Shown here piece by piece: positions 4,171-42,240 of a stretch of 64,000 nucleotides of DNA (the stretch's first letter is position 1; every line of letters begins with the position of its first letter). Origin of the DNA: Actinomycetes bacterium (GTDB lineage Bacteria; Actinomycetota; Acidimicrobiia; Acidimicrobiales; RAAP-2); the NCBI GenBank assembly GCA_021785695.1, contig JAJYEQ010000002.1, forward strand, positions 87,565 to 151,564. The letters run 5' to 3'. Position numbers and translations under genes: made by a program. The notes beneath the pieces are model-generated. The model searched no databases. It worked only from the letters and a program-made list of their open reading frames with translations, and had not been told where the DNA came from.

Positions 4171-5181
4171 CTACCAGAGCGCGTTCCACTCGGCGGCGCT
4201 GAGGCGGTCGATCTCGACGACCTCGCGGCCTTCGGTGTCCAGCAGGACTCGGTCGTCGCTGACGAAGGACGGGTGGTCCAGGCCGATGCGGCGCCAGGGC
4301 CCAAACGGGATGCGCCCGGGGCGCGACTTGGTGTAGAGCGCGCGCACCAGCAGGTGGGACGTCGATCCCGCCACGACCAGGGCCGGGCGATGCTTCTCGT
4401 GCTCGTCGGGACGCGAGGGATCGATCGCGTCGAACGGAACGTCGACCGTGACCACGGCGCCGACCAGGGCGTGCCGATCGCTCACCAGACGCGCCTCGGC
4501 CGGCGTCAGCGGCGTGCGGCGCCAGTGCGGTGGCGCCAGCGTCCCGCCGGGCGACCCGACGTCCCCCTCGGCGTCGGGACGTCGAGTGCGCGACGGTCGC
4601 GACGGTCGCGCCGGAGCCGACGACGCCTGTCGCGCCGCCCGGCGTTGGCGCCGGCGCTCGCGCACCTCCGGGTCCACCTCGCGCGGCGGGGCCATCGCCA
4701 CGGGAGCGCCGCTCGCGACCTCCACCGAGGGCAGCGCCAGCTCCGGGCTTTCGCGAAGGAGTCGTCGGCAGTGCGGCGCCGCCGCGAACTGCTCGGCGAC
4801 GGCGAAGGCCAGCAGAGCCGCTCGCCGATCGTCGCTGACCCCCTCGGCGGCCATCGCGTCCACGGCCGCGGCCAACTGGTCGAAACTGGGGCGGTCGGCG
4901 TGCTCGCCCAGCAGCTCCACGATGCGTTCCAGGTCCGGCGCCACCAGGGACTCGAGTAGGGCTCGCACGGCGGGGGCGGGCGCGTGGCTGACGAACTCGG
5001 GCACGTCGCGCCGCTCGCGCAGAGAGCGCAGCGGCAAGGCCACGGCCGGCGAGATCCGCGCTCCCGGACGGAGGTCCAGCCCATCGACGCGCTCCAGCAG
5101 CGCCTCACCGGGCAAGCGAGCCAGTCCCCGGCGCCACAGCGTCGGGCCGCTCAACGAGTCAGCGGGCGGCGTCACGTCCAT
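4171..5181 (-). CDS. Unknown protein with C-terminal MazF/PemK-like domain
   Basis: This 336-residue protein is not recognised over its first 230 residues: an acidic, Leu-rich helical part, then a Pro/Arg-rich linker (about residues 165-210). The last 100 residues look like the SH3-like fold of MazF/PemK endoribonucleases or related PemK-like proteins: GAVVTVDVPF near its start, EKHRPALVV, then SHLLVRALYTK. Standard MazF toxins are about 110 residues and follow a small antitoxin gene. Here there is no small upstream partner, and the domain is fused to a long N-terminus, so a toxin role is doubtful. The gene ends 20 bases before tnaA. Confidence 0.5.
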   Translation of the reverse strand: MDVTPPADSLSGPTLWRRGLARLPGEALLERVDGLDLRPGARISPAVALPLRSLRERRDVPEFVSHAPAPAVRALLESLVAPDLERIVELLGEHADRPSFDQLAAAVDAMAAEGVSDDRRAALLAFAVAEQFAAAPHCRRLLRESPELALPSVEVASGAPVAMAPPREVDPEVRERRRQRRAARQASSAPARPSRPSRTRRPDAEGDVGSPGGTLAPPHWRRTPLTPAEARLVSDRHALVGAVVTVDVPFDAIDPSRPDEHEKHRPALVVAGSTSHLLVRALYTKSRPGRIPFGPWRRIGLDHPSFVSDDRVLLDTEGREVVEIDRLSAAEWNALW

Positions 5182-5596
5182 AGGTGCCTAGTCACGGCCA
5201 CGCACTGTATCGGGTTGGTGCGCGCAGGGGCTAGGCGACCGGGCCCGAAGCCCGCACCCACCAGGGAACGGAGACGCGCAGCGATGCTCTCCCACCACCG
5301 AGCTGTCGTGCACGACCGTCCTTCGCCGCGGCCTCTCGGGCTCCCCGCATCCGGGCGCGGGTGCGGGCCGACCGCCGAGCCTGCGCGGGCCCCGCGCTCC
5401 ACCAACGGCCGGATCCTCCGGGGTGACCAGCGACCCCTCAACGCGACGAGGAGGGTACGCGACGGTCGTCCGCCTCTCGCCTCTCGCCTCTCGCCCCCCG
5501 GACGGGGCCACCCGACCAACCGGGCATCGTGGGCTCGAAGACCAGCGCTCGTCGCTCCCCGCTCCTGCGCGCACCGGATGCACCCTGGGTACTTCA
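5182..5596. other. Intergenic stretch without a recognisable gene
   Basis: This is 415 bases between the MazF/PemK-tailed gene and the methyltransferase gene. ORFs crossing it (131 and 193 residues on minus, 211 on plus) have low-complexity Arg/Gly/Pro composition and look like GC-rich shadows. I checked both strands by eye for RNase P, tmRNA and SRP RNA landmarks and for tRNA T-arms and found none. A short run of GCCTCTC units lies near 5475-5500. TACAGT at 5204-5209 (minus) is a possible -10 for the gene ending at 4171. Confidence 0.4.
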
Positions 5597-6262
5597 CTAG
5601 TCGAGCAGCGACGCGGTGACGACCCGCAGGACCTGAAAGGCCCCCAGCACGGGCAGCACCCGTCCTATCTGCTCGACCGACTCGGCCACCGACCGGTGCG
5701 CGGCCAGGGCCGGAGACGCGTAGAGCGATGAGCTCACGGTGGCCCGTCCCCACGGCGACCCCAGGCGGCGCAGATCACTTCGAGACAGGAAGCGCGCTGA
5801 GGCCCACGGCTCGTCGCCAAACTCCCGTCGGTGGTCGAGGCCCCACAGGCTCCTCGGGTTGAGCGAGCCCACCACGACTCGCCCGCCCGCGCGCACCACG
5901 CGAGCCATCTCGGCCACCACGAGCGCGGGGTCGACAGTGAACTCGCAGACGGTGACCGCGAGAGCGGCGTCGAAGGACCGGTCAGCGAAGGGCAGCCGAT
6001 GCGCGTCGCCGACGACCAGGTCCCCGAAGACCCGCGACCGCGCCACCGCGAGCATGGCGGGGTCGCGATCCAGCCCCACCACAACCGCCCCGACCTCTTC
6101 GAGGGCCCGCGTGAACCGTCCCGTGCCACAGCCGACGTCGAGCACGTGCGCACCCTCCGGGACCCCCAGAGCCGACCGAACACACTTCCACTCCACGTCG
6201 AACGCGAACTGGCCCCAGGGGCTCTCGAACCACCCGTCGTACCGACCAGCGCTACTGGTCAT
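5597..6262 (-). CDS. SAM-dependent class I methyltransferase (type 11)
   Basis: This is a 221-residue protein with the Rossmann-type SAM motif VLDVGCGTGRFTRAL (about residues 40-54), the acidic ribose-binding GLDRDPAML, and VVGDAHRLPFADRSFD, the usual post-II region of UbiE/type 11 methyltransferases. The substrate is unknown. Its start lies four bases below the stop of the desulfurase gene at 6266, so the two are one operon with the methyltransferase second. That pairing hints at a sulfur- or selenium-linked substrate, which is inference only. Confidence 0.85.
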   Translation of the reverse strand: MTSSAGRYDGWFESPWGQFAFDVEWKCVRSALGVPEGAHVLDVGCGTGRFTRALEEVGAVVVGLDRDPAMLAVARSRVFGDLVVGDAHRLPFADRSFDAALAVTVCEFTVDPALVVAEMARVVRAGGRVVVGSLNPRSLWGLDHRREFGDEPWASARFLSRSDLRRLGSPWGRATVSSSLYASPALAAHRSVAESVEQIGRVLPVLGAFQVLRVVTASLLD

Positions 6263-6265
6263 CGC

Positions 6266-7480
6266 TCACGGGCGCGCCGCGGCTTCCGCGATCGCCGAAG
6301 CGGCACGCTCCACGTCCTCGGCCGTGCTCCAGCGCCCCAGAGAGAGCCGGAGGGCGGCCATCGCGCGATCGTGTGAGGCCCCCATGGCCAGAAGCACCGG
6401 CGAGGGCGCATCGTCGCCCGCGTGACAGGCCGAGCCCGTAGAGGCGGCAATGGCCACCGTGCGCTCCAGAAGATCCACCGCCCGCACTCCGGCAATGCTC
6501 ACGTTCAGCGTGTTCGGCAGTCGCATCTGCGCGTGCCCGTTGAGCGTGATCCGATCTCCCAGTTGGTCCACCAGGTCGCGCCACAGGGCGTCGCGCAGCT
6601 CCCGCAGTCGATCGGACTCGCCCCCGGCCACCGCCTCGTCGGCCAACTCCGCCGCGCGACCCAAACCCACCAGGGACGCCACGTTCTCGGTGCCGGCGCG
6701 CAGCCCCCACTCCTGGCCTCCTCCCCCGACCAGGGGTGCCAAGGCGACGCCCTGGCGGATCCACAGGGCGCCCACGCCTTTGGGGGCGTACATCTTGTGG
6801 CCCACGATCGTGAGCAGATCGACACCCAGCACCTCCACGTCAACCGGGATCTTGCCCAGCGACTGCGCCGCGTCACAGTGCACCAGGACACCGTGCTGAT
6901 GGGCCAGTCGCGCGATCTCCGCGACCGGCTGGATCGTGCCGGTCTCGTTGTTGGCGTGCATGATCGACACCAGCACCGTCTCGTCGCGCATCGCGCTGGC
7001 CACCTCGGCGGGGTCGACGAGGCCGTCTTGGTCGACTCCCAGGACGCTGACCGTGACTCCCCACTCATCCCGCAAGGCGCCGCAGGCCTCCAGGACGGCC
7101 GGGTGCTCGGTCGCTTGGGTGATCACGTGAGCGGGCCCGGGCGCGAGGAGCCTCTCGCGCACCAGACCCCGAAGGGCCAGGGCGTCGGCCTCGGAGCCCG
7201 AGCCGGTGAACACCAGCCGGCCCGAGGGCGCATGGACGAGCGCGGCCACACGAGCGCGCGCGACGTCGAGGAGGGCTCTCGCCGAGCGACCGTAGGCGTG
7301 CTGACTGGACGGGTTGCCGAACTCGCGAACCAGGACCTCCGTCACGTCCTCGGCCACCCGCGGGTCGACGGGCGTGGTCGCGTTGTAGTCGAGGTAGATC
7401 GGGTCCGCGCGCAGACCCGGGTGAGCCGGTGGCGCCTTGGTCGTATCGCGCCCCCTGGTCATGTGCGACTCCCTCGTCAT
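6266..7480 (-). CDS. Cysteine desulfurase of the selenocysteine-lyase (SCLY)-like group
   Basis: This is a 404-residue fold-type I PLP enzyme. It begins with YLDYNATTPV, has the His motif TEHPAVLEA, the PLP lysine in IVGHKMYAPKGVGAL, and the active Cys in ASTGSACHAGDDAPSPVLL. That Cys loop, together with the LTIVGHK, GGGQEWGLRAGTEN and RLPNTLNVSI stretches, matches my memory of animal selenocysteine lyase better than IscS. It would release S0 (or selenium) from Cys (or Sec) to give Ala. ATG codons at residues 1 and 7 are both possible starts. A second desulfurase, IscS-like and next to mnmA, is at 42288-43442, so this copy probably has a separate role. Confidence 0.82.
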   Translation of the reverse strand: MTRESHMTRGRDTTKAPPAHPGLRADPIYLDYNATTPVDPRVAEDVTEVLVREFGNPSSQHAYGRSARALLDVARARVAALVHAPSGRLVFTGSGSEADALALRGLVRERLLAPGPAHVITQATEHPAVLEACGALRDEWGVTVSVLGVDQDGLVDPAEVASAMRDETVLVSIMHANNETGTIQPVAEIARLAHQHGVLVHCDAAQSLGKIPVDVEVLGVDLLTIVGHKMYAPKGVGALWIRQGVALAPLVGGGGQEWGLRAGTENVASLVGLGRAAELADEAVAGGESDRLRELRDALWRDLVDQLGDRITLNGHAQMRLPNTLNVSIAGVRAVDLLERTVAIAASTGSACHAGDDAPSPVLLAMGASHDRAMAALRLSLGRWSTAEDVERAASAIAEAAARP

Positions 7481-32138: not shown

Positions 32139-33554
32139 CTAGCGCCGCGACTCCAGCTCGGCCAGCACCTGCTGACCGTTGGCCCGCCCCCGGGTGGCCT
32201 TCATCACCACGCCCACGAAGAACTGGGCCAGCTTGTCCTCGCCCGCGCGGTAGCGCGCCCATTCGTCGGGATGTTCGGCCACCGCCTGGGACACCGTGCC
32301 CGAGAGATCGTCGGCGTTCATGGGTGCGAATCCGCGTCGCTCCACGATCTCGGCCACCTCGCCACCGCCGCGCACCAGCTCGGCCAGGACCGCCTTGGCC
32401 TGGGTGGCCGACAGCGTCCCGGCCGCCTCGCGCGCGAGGACCTCGGCGAACGCGTCGGGGCGCACCTGCCCGGGCCCGTCCAGGCCGGCCAGCTCGTTGG
32501 CCGCGCGCGACAGGGCCACCGTGGCCTCCACGTCCCGGGCGACGGCCGCCTCGACGAACCCGTCCAGTCCGGCGCCGACGACGGCGTCGAGCACGTCGCC
32601 GGGCACCACGGCGCCGCGCGCCAGGCTGGCCAGGGCGGCTCGCCGCTGCGCGGGCATCGGGCCCAGGCCGTCGCGGATGCGCGCGATCATGGCGGGATCC
32701 GGCACCAGGTCGGTCAGATCGGGCTCGCGGAAGTACCGGTAGTCCTCGGCCTCCTCCTTGACCCGCATCGTGCTGGTCTCGCCGCTGCCCTCGTCCCAGT
32801 GCCGCGTCTCCTGGCGTACCTGCCCGCCCGCGAGGATCAGCTCGATCTGGCGCTCGGCCTCGTAGGCCACGGCCCGCTGCAGGCTGCGCAGGGAGTTGAG
32901 GTTCTTGATCTCGCAACGCGTGCCCAGAGGCGCGCCCGGGAGGCGCACCGAGACGTTGGCGTCCACGCGTAGGGATCCCTCCTCCATGCGCCCGTCCGAG
33001 GCGCCGGTCGCGATGAGGATCGCCCGCAGCTCGGCGACGTAGAGCCGGGCCTGCTCGGGTGAGCGCATGTCGGGCTCCGACACGATCTCCACCAGGGGCA
33101 CGCCCGCCCGGTTGTAGTCGACCAGCGACCGCTCGGCATCGTGCATGCGCCCGGTGCCGCCCAGGTGCGTGGACTTGCCGGTGTCCTCCTCGAGGTGCGC
33201 GCGCACGATCCCCACCCGGGAACCGTCGGACAGGTCGAGGTATCCCCCCTCGTTGATGGGTCGGTCGTACTGGGAGATCTGGAAGTCCTTGGGCATGTCG
33301 GGGTAGAAGTAGTTCTTCCGGTGGAAGGTCGACGCTCCGACCCGGGAGTGCAGAGCCGTCCCGATGGCCACCGCCAGCTCCACCGCCCGCGCGTTGAGCA
33401 CCGGCAGGGACCCGGGCAGCCCGAGGCACACCGGGCACACCTGGGTGTTGGGCTCGGCGCCAAAGGCGTTGGCGCAGCTGCAGAACATCTTGCTGGCCGT
33501 CAGCAGCTCGGTGTGCACCTCGAGGCCGACCACCATCTCCCAGCCCTCACGCAC
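32139..33554 (-). CDS. gatB: Asp/Glu-tRNA(Asn/Gln) amidotransferase subunit B
   Basis: A 471-residue tRNA-binding kinase subunit. MVVGLEVHTELLTASKMFC, the zinc cysteines around CSCANAF and CPVCLGLPG, YPDMPKDFQISQYDRP and the C-terminal YqeY/tail helical domain are all present. With GatA and GatC it converts misacylated Glu-tRNA(Gln) or Asp-tRNA(Asn). The GTG at 33554 overlaps gatA by eight bases; an ATG six codons later is also possible. Confidence 0.95.
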   Translation of the reverse strand: MREGWEMVVGLEVHTELLTASKMFCSCANAFGAEPNTQVCPVCLGLPGSLPVLNARAVELAVAIGTALHSRVGASTFHRKNYFYPDMPKDFQISQYDRPINEGGYLDLSDGSRVGIVRAHLEEDTGKSTHLGGTGRMHDAERSLVDYNRAGVPLVEIVSEPDMRSPEQARLYVAELRAILIATGASDGRMEEGSLRVDANVSVRLPGAPLGTRCEIKNLNSLRSLQRAVAYEAERQIELILAGGQVRQETRHWDEGSGETSTMRVKEEAEDYRYFREPDLTDLVPDPAMIARIRDGLGPMPAQRRAALASLARGAVVPGDVLDAVVGAGLDGFVEAAVARDVEATVALSRAANELAGLDGPGQVRPDAFAEVLAREAAGTLSATQAKAVLAELVRGGGEVAEIVERRGFAPMNADDLSGTVSQAVAEHPDEWARYRAGEDKLAQFFVGVVMKATRGRANGQQVLAELESRR

Positions 33555-34974
33555 CGGGCACCCCCCGTCCCGCCTCCACCACGGCGGCCGCCGCCACCAG
33601 GCGCTCCTCGCTGCGGGCCGGGCCGAGCAGCTGCACGCCGAGCGGCAGCCCGCTGGCCCCGCTCCCGAAGGGCACCGAGATGGCCGCGTGGCCGGACAGG
33701 TTGGTGGGGATGGTGAAGACGTCCGAGAGGTACATGGCCATCGGGTCGCTCACCTTGGCCCCCAGCGCGAAGGCCTCCGAGGGCGCCGTCGCCCCGAGGA
33801 GCAGGTCGGCGCTGGCGTAGGCGCGCTCGAAGGCCTCGATCATGACCGTGCGGACCTTCAGCGCCTGGCCGTAGTAGGCGTCGTAGTAGCCCGCCGAGAG
33901 CGCGTAGGTCCCCAGCATGATGCGGCGCTTGACCTCGGCGCCGAACCCCGCGGTGCGCGTCGCCACGTACATCTCGGTGATGTCGGAGCCCGCGACGCGC
34001 AGCCCGAAGCGCACGCCGTCGTAGCGCGCCAGGTTGCTGGAGGCCTCGGCCGGCGCGATGAGGTAGTACGCGCTGAGGCCGAGGCGCAACTCGGGGATGG
34101 ACACCTCGCTGAGTGTGGCGCCCGCCGCGGCCAGGACCTCGGCCGCGCCCGCGACGGCGGCCACGACCTCGGGGTCGGCCCCCTCGACCAGCTCGCGCAC
34201 GATCCCGATGCGCCGGCCCGCGACGCCTTGGTCCAGGTGCGCGATCAGCGCGGGGGCCGGGCCCGGCAGTGACGTGCTGTCGCGAGGGTCGTGGCCGGCG
34301 ATGGCCTCGAGGCTCGCGGCGGCGTCGGCCACGCTGCGGGCCAGGGGGCCGATCTGGTCGAGGGAGCTGGCAAAGGCCACCAAGCCGTAGCGCGAGACCA
34401 GCCCGTAGGTGGGCTTGATGCCGACCAGCCCGCACAGGGCGGCGGGCTGGCGGATCGAGCCACCGGTGTCGCTGCCCAAAGCGACGGGCACCATCCCCGC
34501 CGCGACCGCCGCAGCCGAGCCGCCCGACGAGCCGCCCGGCACCCGGGTGGGGTTGAGTGGGTTGCGGGTGGGGCCGTAGGCCGAGGTCTCGGTGGACGAG
34601 CCCATCGCGAACTCGTCCATGTTGGTCTTGCCCACCGGCACCGCGCCCGCCGCGAGCAGGCGCTCGACCGCAGTCGCCGTGTAGGGCGGGCGCCATCCCG
34701 ACAGGATCCGCGACCCGCACGTCGTGGGCACGCCGGTCTGGCACAGGTTGTCCTTGAGCCCCACGGGCACGCCCGCCAGGATCCCGGGGTCGCGGCCGGC
34801 CGCCACCGCGGCGTCGACGGCGGCGGCCCGCTCCAGCGCCGACTCACCCTCGACGTGGACGAAGACGTTGAGCTCTCCATTGCGCGCCGCGATGGCGGTG
34901 AGGGCCTCCTCGGTCACCGAGACGGCCGAGCGCTCGCCCGACCGCACCCGGGCGGCGATCTCCAGCGCGTTCAC
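33547..34974 (-). CDS. gatA: Asp/Glu-tRNA(Asn/Gln) amidotransferase subunit A
   Basis: A 475-residue amidase-signature subunit that releases ammonia from glutamine. The Ser-Ser-Lys triad is visible: Lys in [10 protein letters not shown], the cis-Ser in [17 protein letters not shown], and the nucleophile Ser in [16 protein letters not shown]. Overlaps gatC by four bases. Usual length. Confidence 0.96.
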
Positions 34975-35270
34975 GGCTCCTCGCCCAGGATCCGCGGGAC
35001 GGCGAAGCGCCCGTCCTCGGGCTGGGGCGCCGCGCTCAAGAACGCGTCACGCACCAGTCCCGGGCGAACCTCGTCGGCGCGCACCACGGTGCCCAGGTCC
35101 ACCGGGTGCGCCGTCGGCGCCACCCCGGTCAGGTCCAGCGCGCGCAGGTCGTTGGCGTGGTCGAGCACCTGCGCCAGCTGCCCGGTGAAGCGGTCCAGCT
35201 CCTCCTCGGTCAGGTGCAGCCGGGCCAGCCGGGCCACCTTGGCCACATCGTCGCGGGTCAACTCGCTCAC
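34971..35270 (-). CDS. gatC: Asp/Glu-tRNA(Asn/Gln) amidotransferase subunit C
   Basis: A 99-residue clamp subunit linking GatA and GatB: DDVAKVARLARLHLTEEELD, then LDLTGVAPTAHPVDL and RADEVRPGL. Full family length. The start overlaps the stop of the upstream esterase gene by four bases, so gatCAB is translated from an mRNA that begins with the esterase. Confidence 0.94.
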   Translation of the reverse strand: MSELTRDDVAKVARLARLHLTEEELDRFTGQLAQVLDHANDLRALDLTGVAPTAHPVDLGTVVRADEVRPGLVRDAFLSAAPQPEDGRFAVPRILGEEP

Positions 35271-36962: not shown

Positions 36963-37265
36963 TCATACCGAGGGTGGCCACCCTCCTCCCCGAGGGCGGC
37001 GCCGGGCGTGCGCATGGTAGTGGTCGCCGATGGTGCGCAGCCGGTCGTCCAAGCGCCACGCGCCCACGCCCAGCTCCTCGTTGGCCACCCGAGCCAGGCG
37101 AAGCCAGAGGGCGACGCGGATCGCGGGCGGCGGCAGCGGGTCGTGGGTCCGCCAGACCACCAGGGGCACCCCGCAGGCCTCGCACTCGGCGATCCAGTAG
37201 TCGGGCCCCTCGTCGAAGCGGCGCGTTAGCGCTGCGGCCTCACACAGCTCGCACGACGGGCTCAC
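36963..37265 (-). CDS. Small zinc-ribbon protein, unknown function
   Basis: A 100-residue protein with two CxxC pairs, SPSCELCEAA and IAECEACGVPLVVWRTH, which suggests one zinc site, then a helical region ending in a His/Arg-rich tail (DHYHAHARRRPRGG). Its GTG overlaps the stop of the PASTA pseudokinase gene (GTGA), so translation is coupled. The ORF track lists it only as the end of a 344-residue antisense frame. Related small proteins occur in actinobacteria, but I know no function. Confidence 0.7.
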   Translation of the reverse strand: MSPSCELCEAAALTRRFDEGPDYWIAECEACGVPLVVWRTHDPLPPPAIRVALWLRLARVANEELGVGAWRLDDRLRTIGDHYHAHARRRPRGGGWPPSV

Positions 37266-39097
37266 CGCACGTTGACAATGATCGTCGAGCGGTACGGGAC
37301 CATCGTCCCGGGCGAGGGCAGCGTCGAGACCACCTTGGTCCACGAGCTCGTCGCGGCACCCGGACCCTTGGGCGAGAAGAAGAGCACCGCGTGGCGGAAT
37401 GCGGCGACCGTCGCGGCCGGTCCGAGACCGATCACGTTGGGTACCGGCCGCGGGCCCTGGCCCGCAACGGTGGCCGTCGTCGAGGCCACGGTGGTGGAAG
37501 TCGTGCCCGGCGCCGAGGTCGTCGTGGTCGAGGGAGGCGTCGTGGCGGCGCCCGCGGGACCGCTGCTCAGGACCAGCGTGATCGTCGCTCCCCGGGGAAC
37601 GCTGCTCGGGTCCGTCACGCCGTGGTAGCGCGTCTCGACCACCTGTCCCACGGGCAGCGTCGACACCACCGCGGCCGAGGCCGGGCACGCCCCGTGCACG
37701 CCCACGCGGCCCAGGGCGCTCTGCGCGCCGGTGCAGCTCTGGCCGGTGACACCGGGCAGCGTCACGACGGTCGGGCCGCTCGAGACGGTGACCGAGATCA
37801 CCTGGCCCGAGCCGGCCGAGACGCCCGCGGCCGGCGACTGGCTGATGATCGCGCCACGCGCGACCGACGCGGAGGCCACGTGGCGCGTCACGCTCACCGA
37901 GAAGCCATCGGCGGTCAGCTGCGACGTCGCCTGCGCCACCGTCAGACCCTCCAGGCGCGGGATCGCCTGGTGCGAGCTGAACAGCCCGAACCACCACGCG
38001 ACTCCGGCCACGACCGCCAGGATCACCACCGCCGCGACCGCGGTGGCAGTGCGGCGGCGGCGCGGCGGCGGCACGACGGGGTAGGGATCGCTCGCGCGCC
38101 GTCGCGAGGGCATCCCGGTCCCCGTCACGTCGCTGGCGCCCTCAAAGACCTGGTCCGGGTCAACATCCCGCCCCGCCAGCTCCCGGGGCGAGGGCGCGCG
38201 AAAGCCGATGGACGCCCGTGGTGCCAGCGGCGGGACCTGCTGGAGGACCGGCACGGCGCCGCGCCGGGCGACCAGTTCGACGGGAGCCTCGTCGAGTGTT
38301 GCCGCGCCCAGACGACTAGCCATCCCCGCCGCGTCCAGGCGCTGGAGGGGATCGGGCACGGTGGCTTGAGCCAGCACCATGTCGAGCGTCCCCAACTCGG
38401 GATGGGGAGGCAGCGGCGAGGCGAGTCGCGCCTGCACCGACCCCTCCACCGTGGAGGCATCGAAGGGCGCCGCACCGGTCACGGCCTCGGCCAGGATCAG
38501 CGCGAGGGCGTACACGTCGGTGGCGGGTCCGGGCAGCTCGCCGCGCACCTGCTCGGGGCTGAGGTAGCGCAGGTCGTGCACGGTGTAGCGCTGGCGGTGC
38601 ATCGCGCGCAGGCCGGCGAGGGCCACGTCGGACACGCGCACGTGACCCAGCTCGTCGACGAGGATCTTGCGCGGGCTCAGGCCCCCGTGAGTCACCTGAT
38701 GGGCGTGCATGGCGGCCAGCGCGCCCGCGACGTCGCGGCCCAGCCGCGCGGCGTCCTCGACACTGAGGAGCTCGCCGGCCGCGAGGCGATCCTCGAGCGA
38801 GCCGTTGCCCAGGTACTCGGTGACCATGAAGATGGTGCCCGACTCCTGGCCCCCATCGAAGACCCGGGCGATGTGGGGGTGGCTGAGGGTGGCCGCGCGG
38901 ATGATCTGCGTGCGAAAGGCCCGCCGGACGTCCTCGTGCTCGGCCAGATCGGACCGCAGGGTCTTGAGGGCGACGCGCCGATCGAGGGCCAGATCCTCGG
39001 CCAGATAGACCTCCGACGTGCCACCCACACCGATGGTGTCGAGGATTCGGTACCGCCCTACGACCTGATATCCGGGTGCGTACCGAAAGCTCGCCAT
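37262..39097 (-). CDS. PASTA-domain Ser/Thr kinase homologue with degenerate active site (pseudokinase)
   Basis: 611 residues: kinase-like domain (1-270), Pro/Arg-rich juxtamembrane part, one membrane helix (AVAAVVILAVVAGVAWWF), then about three PASTA repeats and a Thr/Ser-rich stretch outside. The glycine loop (GVGGTSEV), ATP-site Lys45 (RRVALKTL) and the APE-like LSPEQV are present. The catalytic loop is HGGLSPRK where active kinases have HRDLKPxN, so the base Asp, Lys and Asn are all lost. The alpha-C Glu is Gln, and DFG reads SDVAL. PknB homologues bind muropeptides or lipid II. Catalysis here is unlikely; a scaffold or sensor role is inferred. Confidence 0.9.
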   Translation of the reverse strand: MASFRYAPGYQVVGRYRILDTIGVGGTSEVYLAEDLALDRRVALKTLRSDLAEHEDVRRAFRTQIIRAATLSHPHIARVFDGGQESGTIFMVTEYLGNGSLEDRLAAGELLSVEDAARLGRDVAGALAAMHAHQVTHGGLSPRKILVDELGHVRVSDVALAGLRAMHRQRYTVHDLRYLSPEQVRGELPGPATDVYALALILAEAVTGAAPFDASTVEGSVQARLASPLPPHPELGTLDMVLAQATVPDPLQRLDAAGMASRLGAATLDEAPVELVARRGAVPVLQQVPPLAPRASIGFRAPSPRELAGRDVDPDQVFEGASDVTGTGMPSRRRASDPYPVVPPPRRRRTATAVAAVVILAVVAGVAWWFGLFSSHQAIPRLEGLTVAQATSQLTADGFSVSVTRHVASASVARGAIISQSPAAGVSAGSGQVISVTVSSGPTVVTLPGVTGQSCTGAQSALGRVGVHGACPASAAVVSTLPVGQVVETRYHGVTDPSSVPRGATITLVLSSGPAGAATTPPSTTTTSAPGTTSTTVASTTATVAGQGPRPVPNVIGLGPAATVAAFRHAVLFFSPKGPGAATSSWTKVVSTLPSPGTMVPYRSTIIVNVR

Positions 39098-39151: not shown

Positions 39152-42240
<3,089 letters not shown>

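Follow-up and report, generated by a model that had tools for sequence, protein, structure and literature searches.

The locus studied here raises the question of what a PASTA receptor kinase can do for the cell once the residues needed for catalysis have gone. Gram-positive bacteria monitor the state of their cell wall mainly through PASTA kinases, and it is not settled how the signal of these kinases passes the membrane. With a PASTA receptor that is naturally free of catalysis and is maintained by purifying selection alongside an active PknB, sensing and dimerization are separated from phosphorylation, and the non-catalytic part of the PASTA signalling mechanism becomes testable. The gene lies in a stretch of 64,000 nucleotides, called the window below, from a genome of an uncultured actinobacterial genus; the assembly comprises 1.77 Mb in 38 contigs and is 92.6% complete. 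The features discussed are collected in Table 1.

Table 1. Features of the pseudokinase locus, with positions in the window
Feature	Position	Strand	Basis or remark
PASTA receptor pseudokinase P0001, 611 aa	37262..39097	-	Open reading frame, ATG start
Kinase-fold domain, aa 12-266	38300..39064	-	Pfam, AlphaFold2, Foldseek, dN/dS
Degenerate catalytic loop HGGLSPRK, aa 137-144, replacing HRDxKPxN	38666..38689	-	Sequence; degenerate in 76/76 genus orthologs
D157-V-A replacing DFG; metal-binding Asp kept in 74/76 orthologs	38621..38629	-	
β3 (VAIK) lysine K45, kept in 65/76	38963..38965	-	
Q64 replacing the αC Glu; Glu in only 7/76	38906..38908	-	
R15, taken as PknB R10, back-to-back dimer interface, 100% conserved	39053..39055	-	
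L38, taken as PknB L33, dimer interface, 96% conserved	38984..38986	-	
D81, taken as PknB D76, dimer interface, 100% conserved	38855..38857	-	
Juxtamembrane motif RASIGFRAPSPRELAG, aa 294-309	38171..38218	-	Genus consensus RxSIGFRxPSxDQIxG
Single transmembrane helix, about aa 354-372	37982..38038	-	Hydropathy
Extracytoplasmic PASTA region, aa 376-611	37265..37972	-	Pfam PASTA
ligA, conserved upstream neighbour	39152..41188	-	Synteny anchor
gatC and gatA, conserved downstream neighbours	33547..35270	-	
Zinc-ribbon ORF (ZnR), 100 aa, optional neighbour	36963..37265	-	4-nt overlap (GTGA) with the pseudokinase

Architecture and catalytic residues

The window protein has the architecture of the PASTA Ser/Thr kinases (PknB, Stk1, PrkC, StkP), with which it has in common the kinase fold, a single transmembrane helix, extracytoplasmic PASTA repeats and the N-lobe dimer residues. 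Pfam detects Pkinase at aa 16-222 (6e-30) and PASTA (2e-21), while the score against the NCBIfam model NF033483 (PknB_PASTA_kin) is 258.6 bits, which does not reach the equivalog cut-off of 450. The repeats are weaker in the pseudokinases, with 1-3 Pfam PASTA hits as against 4 in PknB. The original prediction, made from the DNA alone, was that the ATP lysine, the membrane helix and the PASTA repeats are kept, and all three were found.

Unlike the PASTA kinases, however, the protein lacks the HRD Asp, the catalytic-loop Lys, the Asn, the DFG Phe and Gly, and the αC Glu. Its loop reads HGGLSPRK, as had been noticed at the outset, and the HRD Arg and Asp, the loop Lys and the metal-binding Asn are all absent from it; the αC Glu is Gln, again in agreement with the earlier reading. 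DFG had been described as lost (SDVAL), which is correct for the Phe and the Gly but not for the Asp, which is retained. What remains of the catalytic apparatus is the β3 Lys and the DFG Asp. A pseudokinase is defined by sequence as lacking at least one of the β3 Lys, the HRD Asp and the DFG Asp (PMC12599244), and the window protein, which is missing the HRD Asp and keeps the kinase fold, falls within this definition.

AlphaFold2 predicted an intact bilobal fold for the kinase domain (pLDDT 89.5, pTM 0.89). A Foldseek search with the predicted domain placed PknA and PknB closest, with a TM score of about 0.8, and the closest solved structures are PknB, PknA and StkP. The window protein is best explained as a true receptor pseudokinase whose function has been retained, and it would presumably have no phosphotransfer activity.

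Conservation within the genus

It had been proposed to align the protein with its relatives and see whether the catalytic loss is conserved, which proved to be the case. An ortholog is present in 83 of the 90 genomes of the genus (a hand count that includes the window genome), and among the 76 distinct orthologs that were aligned not one has the complete HRDxKPxN set. The HRD Asp occurs in nine of them, all nine lacking both the loop Lys and the loop Asn; over the whole alignment the loop Lys is found once (1/76), the loop Asn never (0/76) and the αC Glu in 7/76. The residue at the HRD-Asp position varies (A, S, E or G), and a Lys stands in place of the metal-binding Asn in 60/76.

The β3 Lys is kept in 65/76 (85%) and the DFG Asp in 74/76 (97%), so that nucleotide binding or some unusual chemistry may persist. 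A nucleotide-dependent chemistry other than standard phosphotransfer, or a weak kinase activity, would be compatible with these two residues and with the recurrent Lys at the Asn position, and has precedents in SelO and SidJ (PMC12599244). We regard it as improbable, since the HRD Asp, loop Lys, Asn, αC Glu and DFG Gly have been lost together, the varied residues at the HRD-Asp position are unlike a new catalytic residue, and the β3 Lys is itself lost in 11/76.

The kinase domain of the genus pseudokinases is under purifying selection. Its dN/dS (NG86) is 0.12-0.20 when the window protein is paired with its three nearest orthologs; other close pairs give 0.03-0.10, and in each pair the value is lower than that of the linker/PASTA remainder of the same protein. 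It is extremely unlikely that the gene is a decaying pseudogene or an assembly error. The loss of the catalytic residues would suit such an origin, as would the seven genomes of 90 that have no ortholog match beyond fragments, but those genomes are mostly incomplete or fragmented, the listed genus orthologs have open frames with no stops, synteny is retained, and a dN/dS of 0.03-0.20 is not that of a decaying gene. Chance or assembly error is ruled out by the agreement of 76 distinct orthologs from independent assemblies. A DNA pattern of the catalytic loop, run against 395 genomes of the class, gave only five matches, all in the window genus; the pattern is too strict even for G000, where the loop differs, and its absence elsewhere consequently proves nothing.

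The lost positions were compared with those that are near-invariant in both active paralogue classes. The losses concentrate in HRD/K/N/DFG, in αC and in the activation loop, whereas conservation at structural and interface positions remains 90-100% in the genus pseudokinases. The dimer-interface residues R15, L38 and D81, which we take to be R10, L33 and D76 in PknB numbering, are conserved at 100/96/100%. They are equally conserved in the active kinases, and their retention may therefore reflect fold stability or homodimers only. Overall, the gene is well supported as a pseudokinase.

Conserved bacterial pseudokinases, some with transmembrane helices, are already known in the families ActPs1, ActPs2, DYD, DLHK, GLW and CP1. 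Their motifs differ from the one described here, in that the β3 Lys is replaced in most of them and the HRD Asp is Asn in ActPs2. The full ActPs2 signature (Lys to Arg, HRD Asp to Asn, deletion of DFG) is not seen in the genus orthologs, which have the Lys in 65/76, A/S/E/G at the HRD Asp and the DFG Asp in 74/76; nor is that of ActPs1, in which all three catalytic residues are substituted, two of the three being kept in most orthologs. No family in a 2025 review of bacterial pseudokinases fits the signature of a kept Lys, a lost HRD and a kept Asp together with PASTA; PASTA architecture is discussed there for no family, and the word occurs only in the title of a reference (PMC12599244). In the open-access literature searched, we found no description of a PASTA pseudokinase; an earlier description elsewhere is possible.

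Origin at the ligA locus and the juxtamembrane motif

The gene order mnmA-ligA-kinase-(ZnR)-SDR-hydrolase-gatC-gatA holds throughout the genus, and a kinase is found beside ligA in most of the order. In an order-level set of 66 sequences, taken at the ligA locus or as the nearest match, the HRD Asp is present in 64/66 (the exceptions being L058 and L200) and the β3 Lys and Asn in 66/66; in sister genera and other families the gene at the same locus is an intact kinase. The original prediction held that relatives with an intact HRD motif at this locus would point to a sequence error. Such relatives do exist, but all the genus sequences agree with one another, so that the relatives date an evolutionary loss and an error is not indicated. 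When a kinase-domain tree was calculated with the catalytic columns removed, the genus came out as one clade (98/92), nested among the ligA-locus kinases and away from PknB. Phylogenetically, the pseudokinase is derived from an active PASTA Ser/Thr kinase whose gene, in related actinobacteria, has ligA on one side and gatCA on the other.

New in the pseudokinase relative to PknB-type PASTA kinases is the juxtamembrane motif (SIGF motif), which sits in the cytoplasmic linker on the N-terminal side of the transmembrane helix. With a strict regular expression it is detected in 70/76 genus sequences, and divergent copies are visible in the remaining ones, as judged from the genus logo and five sequences inspected apart. 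None of the PknBs (0/21) and none of the active counterparts outside the family (0/60) matches the strict pattern. F299 and P302 do not vary in 69 sequences. In conservation the motif equals the folded domain (mean entropy 1.31 compared with 1.23), the linker being at 2.2. A degenerate IGF[R/S]xPS search of the 92.6% complete genome matched only the window gene and no second gene with a SIGF motif. AlphaFold2 left the motif undocked on its own kinase domain, with a pLDDT of 48-58 for the block. At this low confidence, intramolecular docking is unsupported, and an undocked motif is as expected for one that binds in trans. We infer that it is a putative docking site in trans for a cytoplasmic protein.

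Within the family, the sister genera differ in what they have kept. The kinases of g135 (four genomes) and g136 are intact and have no SIGF-type motif; those of g134 (two genomes) have intact HRD and DFG and carry the motif as PGFRAPSTDELTQ; g137 (one genome) has HSAITPTN with an intact DFG and the motif LGFRAPSPDQLTQ; and g60 (one genome) has HGAVTPAN, DFH and the motif SIGFRPPSATELTG. The best tree requires two HRD losses and one motif gain in the family. The AU test does not reject a single HRD loss (p = 0.32), and support for the motif clade is no more than moderate (83/73). The motif is thus present in two sister-genus kinases that retain HRD and DFG, and because these still-active kinases carry it, it probably arose before the loss of catalysis. 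Two active-looking sister kinases, L223 and L224, show the motif as GFRAPS at about aa 295-310.

A separate TxLG-like motif, often D-x-T-E-L-G, was observed in the juxtamembrane linker of 28/60 active ligA-locus kinases, as against 8.5 expected from shuffles. It occurs among L039-L057, L140-L168 and L178-L208, in the linker before the transmembrane helix. It is possibly a phosphosite, and its homology to SIGF, as an ancestral form, is at most suggestive.

The HRD motif has been lost independently in another family, f51 (L058, L170, L171). At the ligA-gatCA locus these three sequences have HSGIAPSN/DFA, HGGIAPSN/DFA and HLNLSPTN/DFE respectively, and the SIGF motif is absent; the PASTA kinase of L058 lies at about 4968-6990 on the plus strand. 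Borderline or dead kinases at the ligA locus were also seen in L198 and L201 of family f35 (HGDIRPSN with DLG, αC Glu absent) and in L200 of G100 (HRGITPGN).

Partners and mode of action

Only two genes of the Pkinase family are present in the assembly, namely the window gene and a canonical PknB (L001/P0003). A second, active PknB was what the original prediction suggested looking for, and at the sequence level this is one: it has an intact HRDIKPGN and DFG, and its gene follows that of a penicillin-binding protein. The contig also carries FHA and PP2C genes at a distance of about 3 kb, and besides PknB the window genome encodes FhaA-like, PP2C and GarA-like FHA proteins. The PknB query was matched in 89/89 genomes of the genus, mostly near full length, and all catalytic positions are intact in the 18 PknBs of the genus and three from other families whose alignments were inspected.

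The loss of catalytic residues in every genus member examined, together with continued selection on the domain, suggests a role as a receptor or scaffold without catalysis. In the mechanism that we propose, the PASTA repeats outside the cell have probably kept the ability to bind peptidoglycan or lipid II as ligand. Inside the cell, the kinase fold would transfer no phosphate by the standard mechanism, and probably acts by contact through the PknB-type N-lobe (back-to-back) surface, the partner being either the pseudokinase itself or the active PknB, whose gene lies elsewhere in the genome. The juxtamembrane motif would be a short docking site for a cytoplasmic protein, and the receptor would in this way modulate or localize PknB signalling without catalysis. 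Loss of activity, ligand binding by PASTA, dimerization and the role of the motif are all things that we infer, and we put the chance that this combination is right at about even.

A scaffold, a decoy or a ligand sensor had been envisaged originally, and of these the scaffold or receptor is the most economical reading. As a decoy or dominant negative, the protein would compete with PknB for muropeptide or would reduce PknB activity by forming dead heterodimers with it; a PASTA domain and an intact dimer surface combined with dead catalysis would suit such a role. A pure ligand decoy, however, needs neither a conserved kinase fold nor a cytoplasmic motif, and both are strongly conserved; we consider this role unlikely.

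The nearest known parallel in setting is the mycobacterial protein MviN (ActPs3), likewise an actinobacterial pseudokinase that belongs to wall signalling with PknB and in which the N-lobe dimer residues are conserved; PknB phosphorylates the tail of its pseudokinase, which then recruits FhaA (PMC12599244). By analogy, PknB could phosphorylate the window pseudokinase or its motif, and the phosphosite would recruit an FHA protein (FhaA or GarA) to the membrane. The FhaA-like and GarA-like proteins of the window genome would fit such a role, as would the nearly conserved Ser of the motif, which is in an R-x-S context, and the MurJ of this genome, which is a separate gene product of 541 aa without a fused pseudokinase domain. 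We think it rather unlikely all the same. FHA domains prefer pThr, whereas the motif offers a Ser, and its preceding Thr position varies. The features of ActPs3 are moreover only partly present: the back-to-back dimer residues are conserved by sequence (R15/L38/D81, 100/96/100%), but a degraded β3 Lys/DFG and a fusion to MurJ are not found. In MviN the pseudokinase is part of a fusion with the lipid-II flippase, and the β3 Lys and DFG Asp are missing (VALT, Y--) (PMC12599244), whereas the window protein is a free PASTA receptor that keeps both K45 and D157 and is derived from a local active kinase.

Receptors with a dead or dispensable kinase beside an active relative are known from HER3 and from plant EFR, which acts non-catalytically on BAK1, and these are models for allosteric co-receptor function (PMC5929906, PMC11259431). 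Their kinase family and dimer geometry differ from those of the bacterial PASTA case, which is known here from sequence. Tentatively, the non-catalytic receptor proposed above could be a similar case, in which a PASTA receptor gained a docking motif while still active, then lost catalysis at least once and perhaps twice in the family, and became an obligatory non-catalytic co-receptor of PknB. If this is true, living genera preserve the intermediate steps, from active without the motif, to active with the motif, to HRD lost with DFG intact, to fully degenerate. The family thus presents natural gradations between active kinase and pseudokinase, with the motif in place ahead of the loss, and intermediates like these are seldom available for the study of pseudokinase evolution.

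The original prediction also pointed to ZnR, as a translationally coupled protein that could be the partner. The 4-nt overlap is real: ZnR is the immediate neighbour of the pseudokinase in 64/73 orthologs, and the -4 overlap is present in 42/50 of those with a placeable start codon. Operon coupling alone does not make ZnR the partner, however, and that it is dedicated to the pseudokinase is very improbable. ZnR is optional, being absent beside the pseudokinase in at least nine genus members (nine scorable orthologs), and a whole-genome ZnR search gave no match in those of the nine genomes that it covered. In most other families ZnR is found at unrelated loci, and in the sister genus g135 it adjoins an active kinase. 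ZnR is below every Pfam cut-off and has no NCBIfam match; it has a conserved helical tail and is widespread in the order, occurring in 97/148 genomes searched.

A further gene of the window genome, at 1465-1926 on the minus strand of L210, encodes a GarA-like protein composed of a zinc ribbon and an FHA domain; an ETVALP stretch lies close to its N-terminus. The gene adjoins a glycine cleavage H-like gene, and its product is likely to be a substrate of PknB in this genome.
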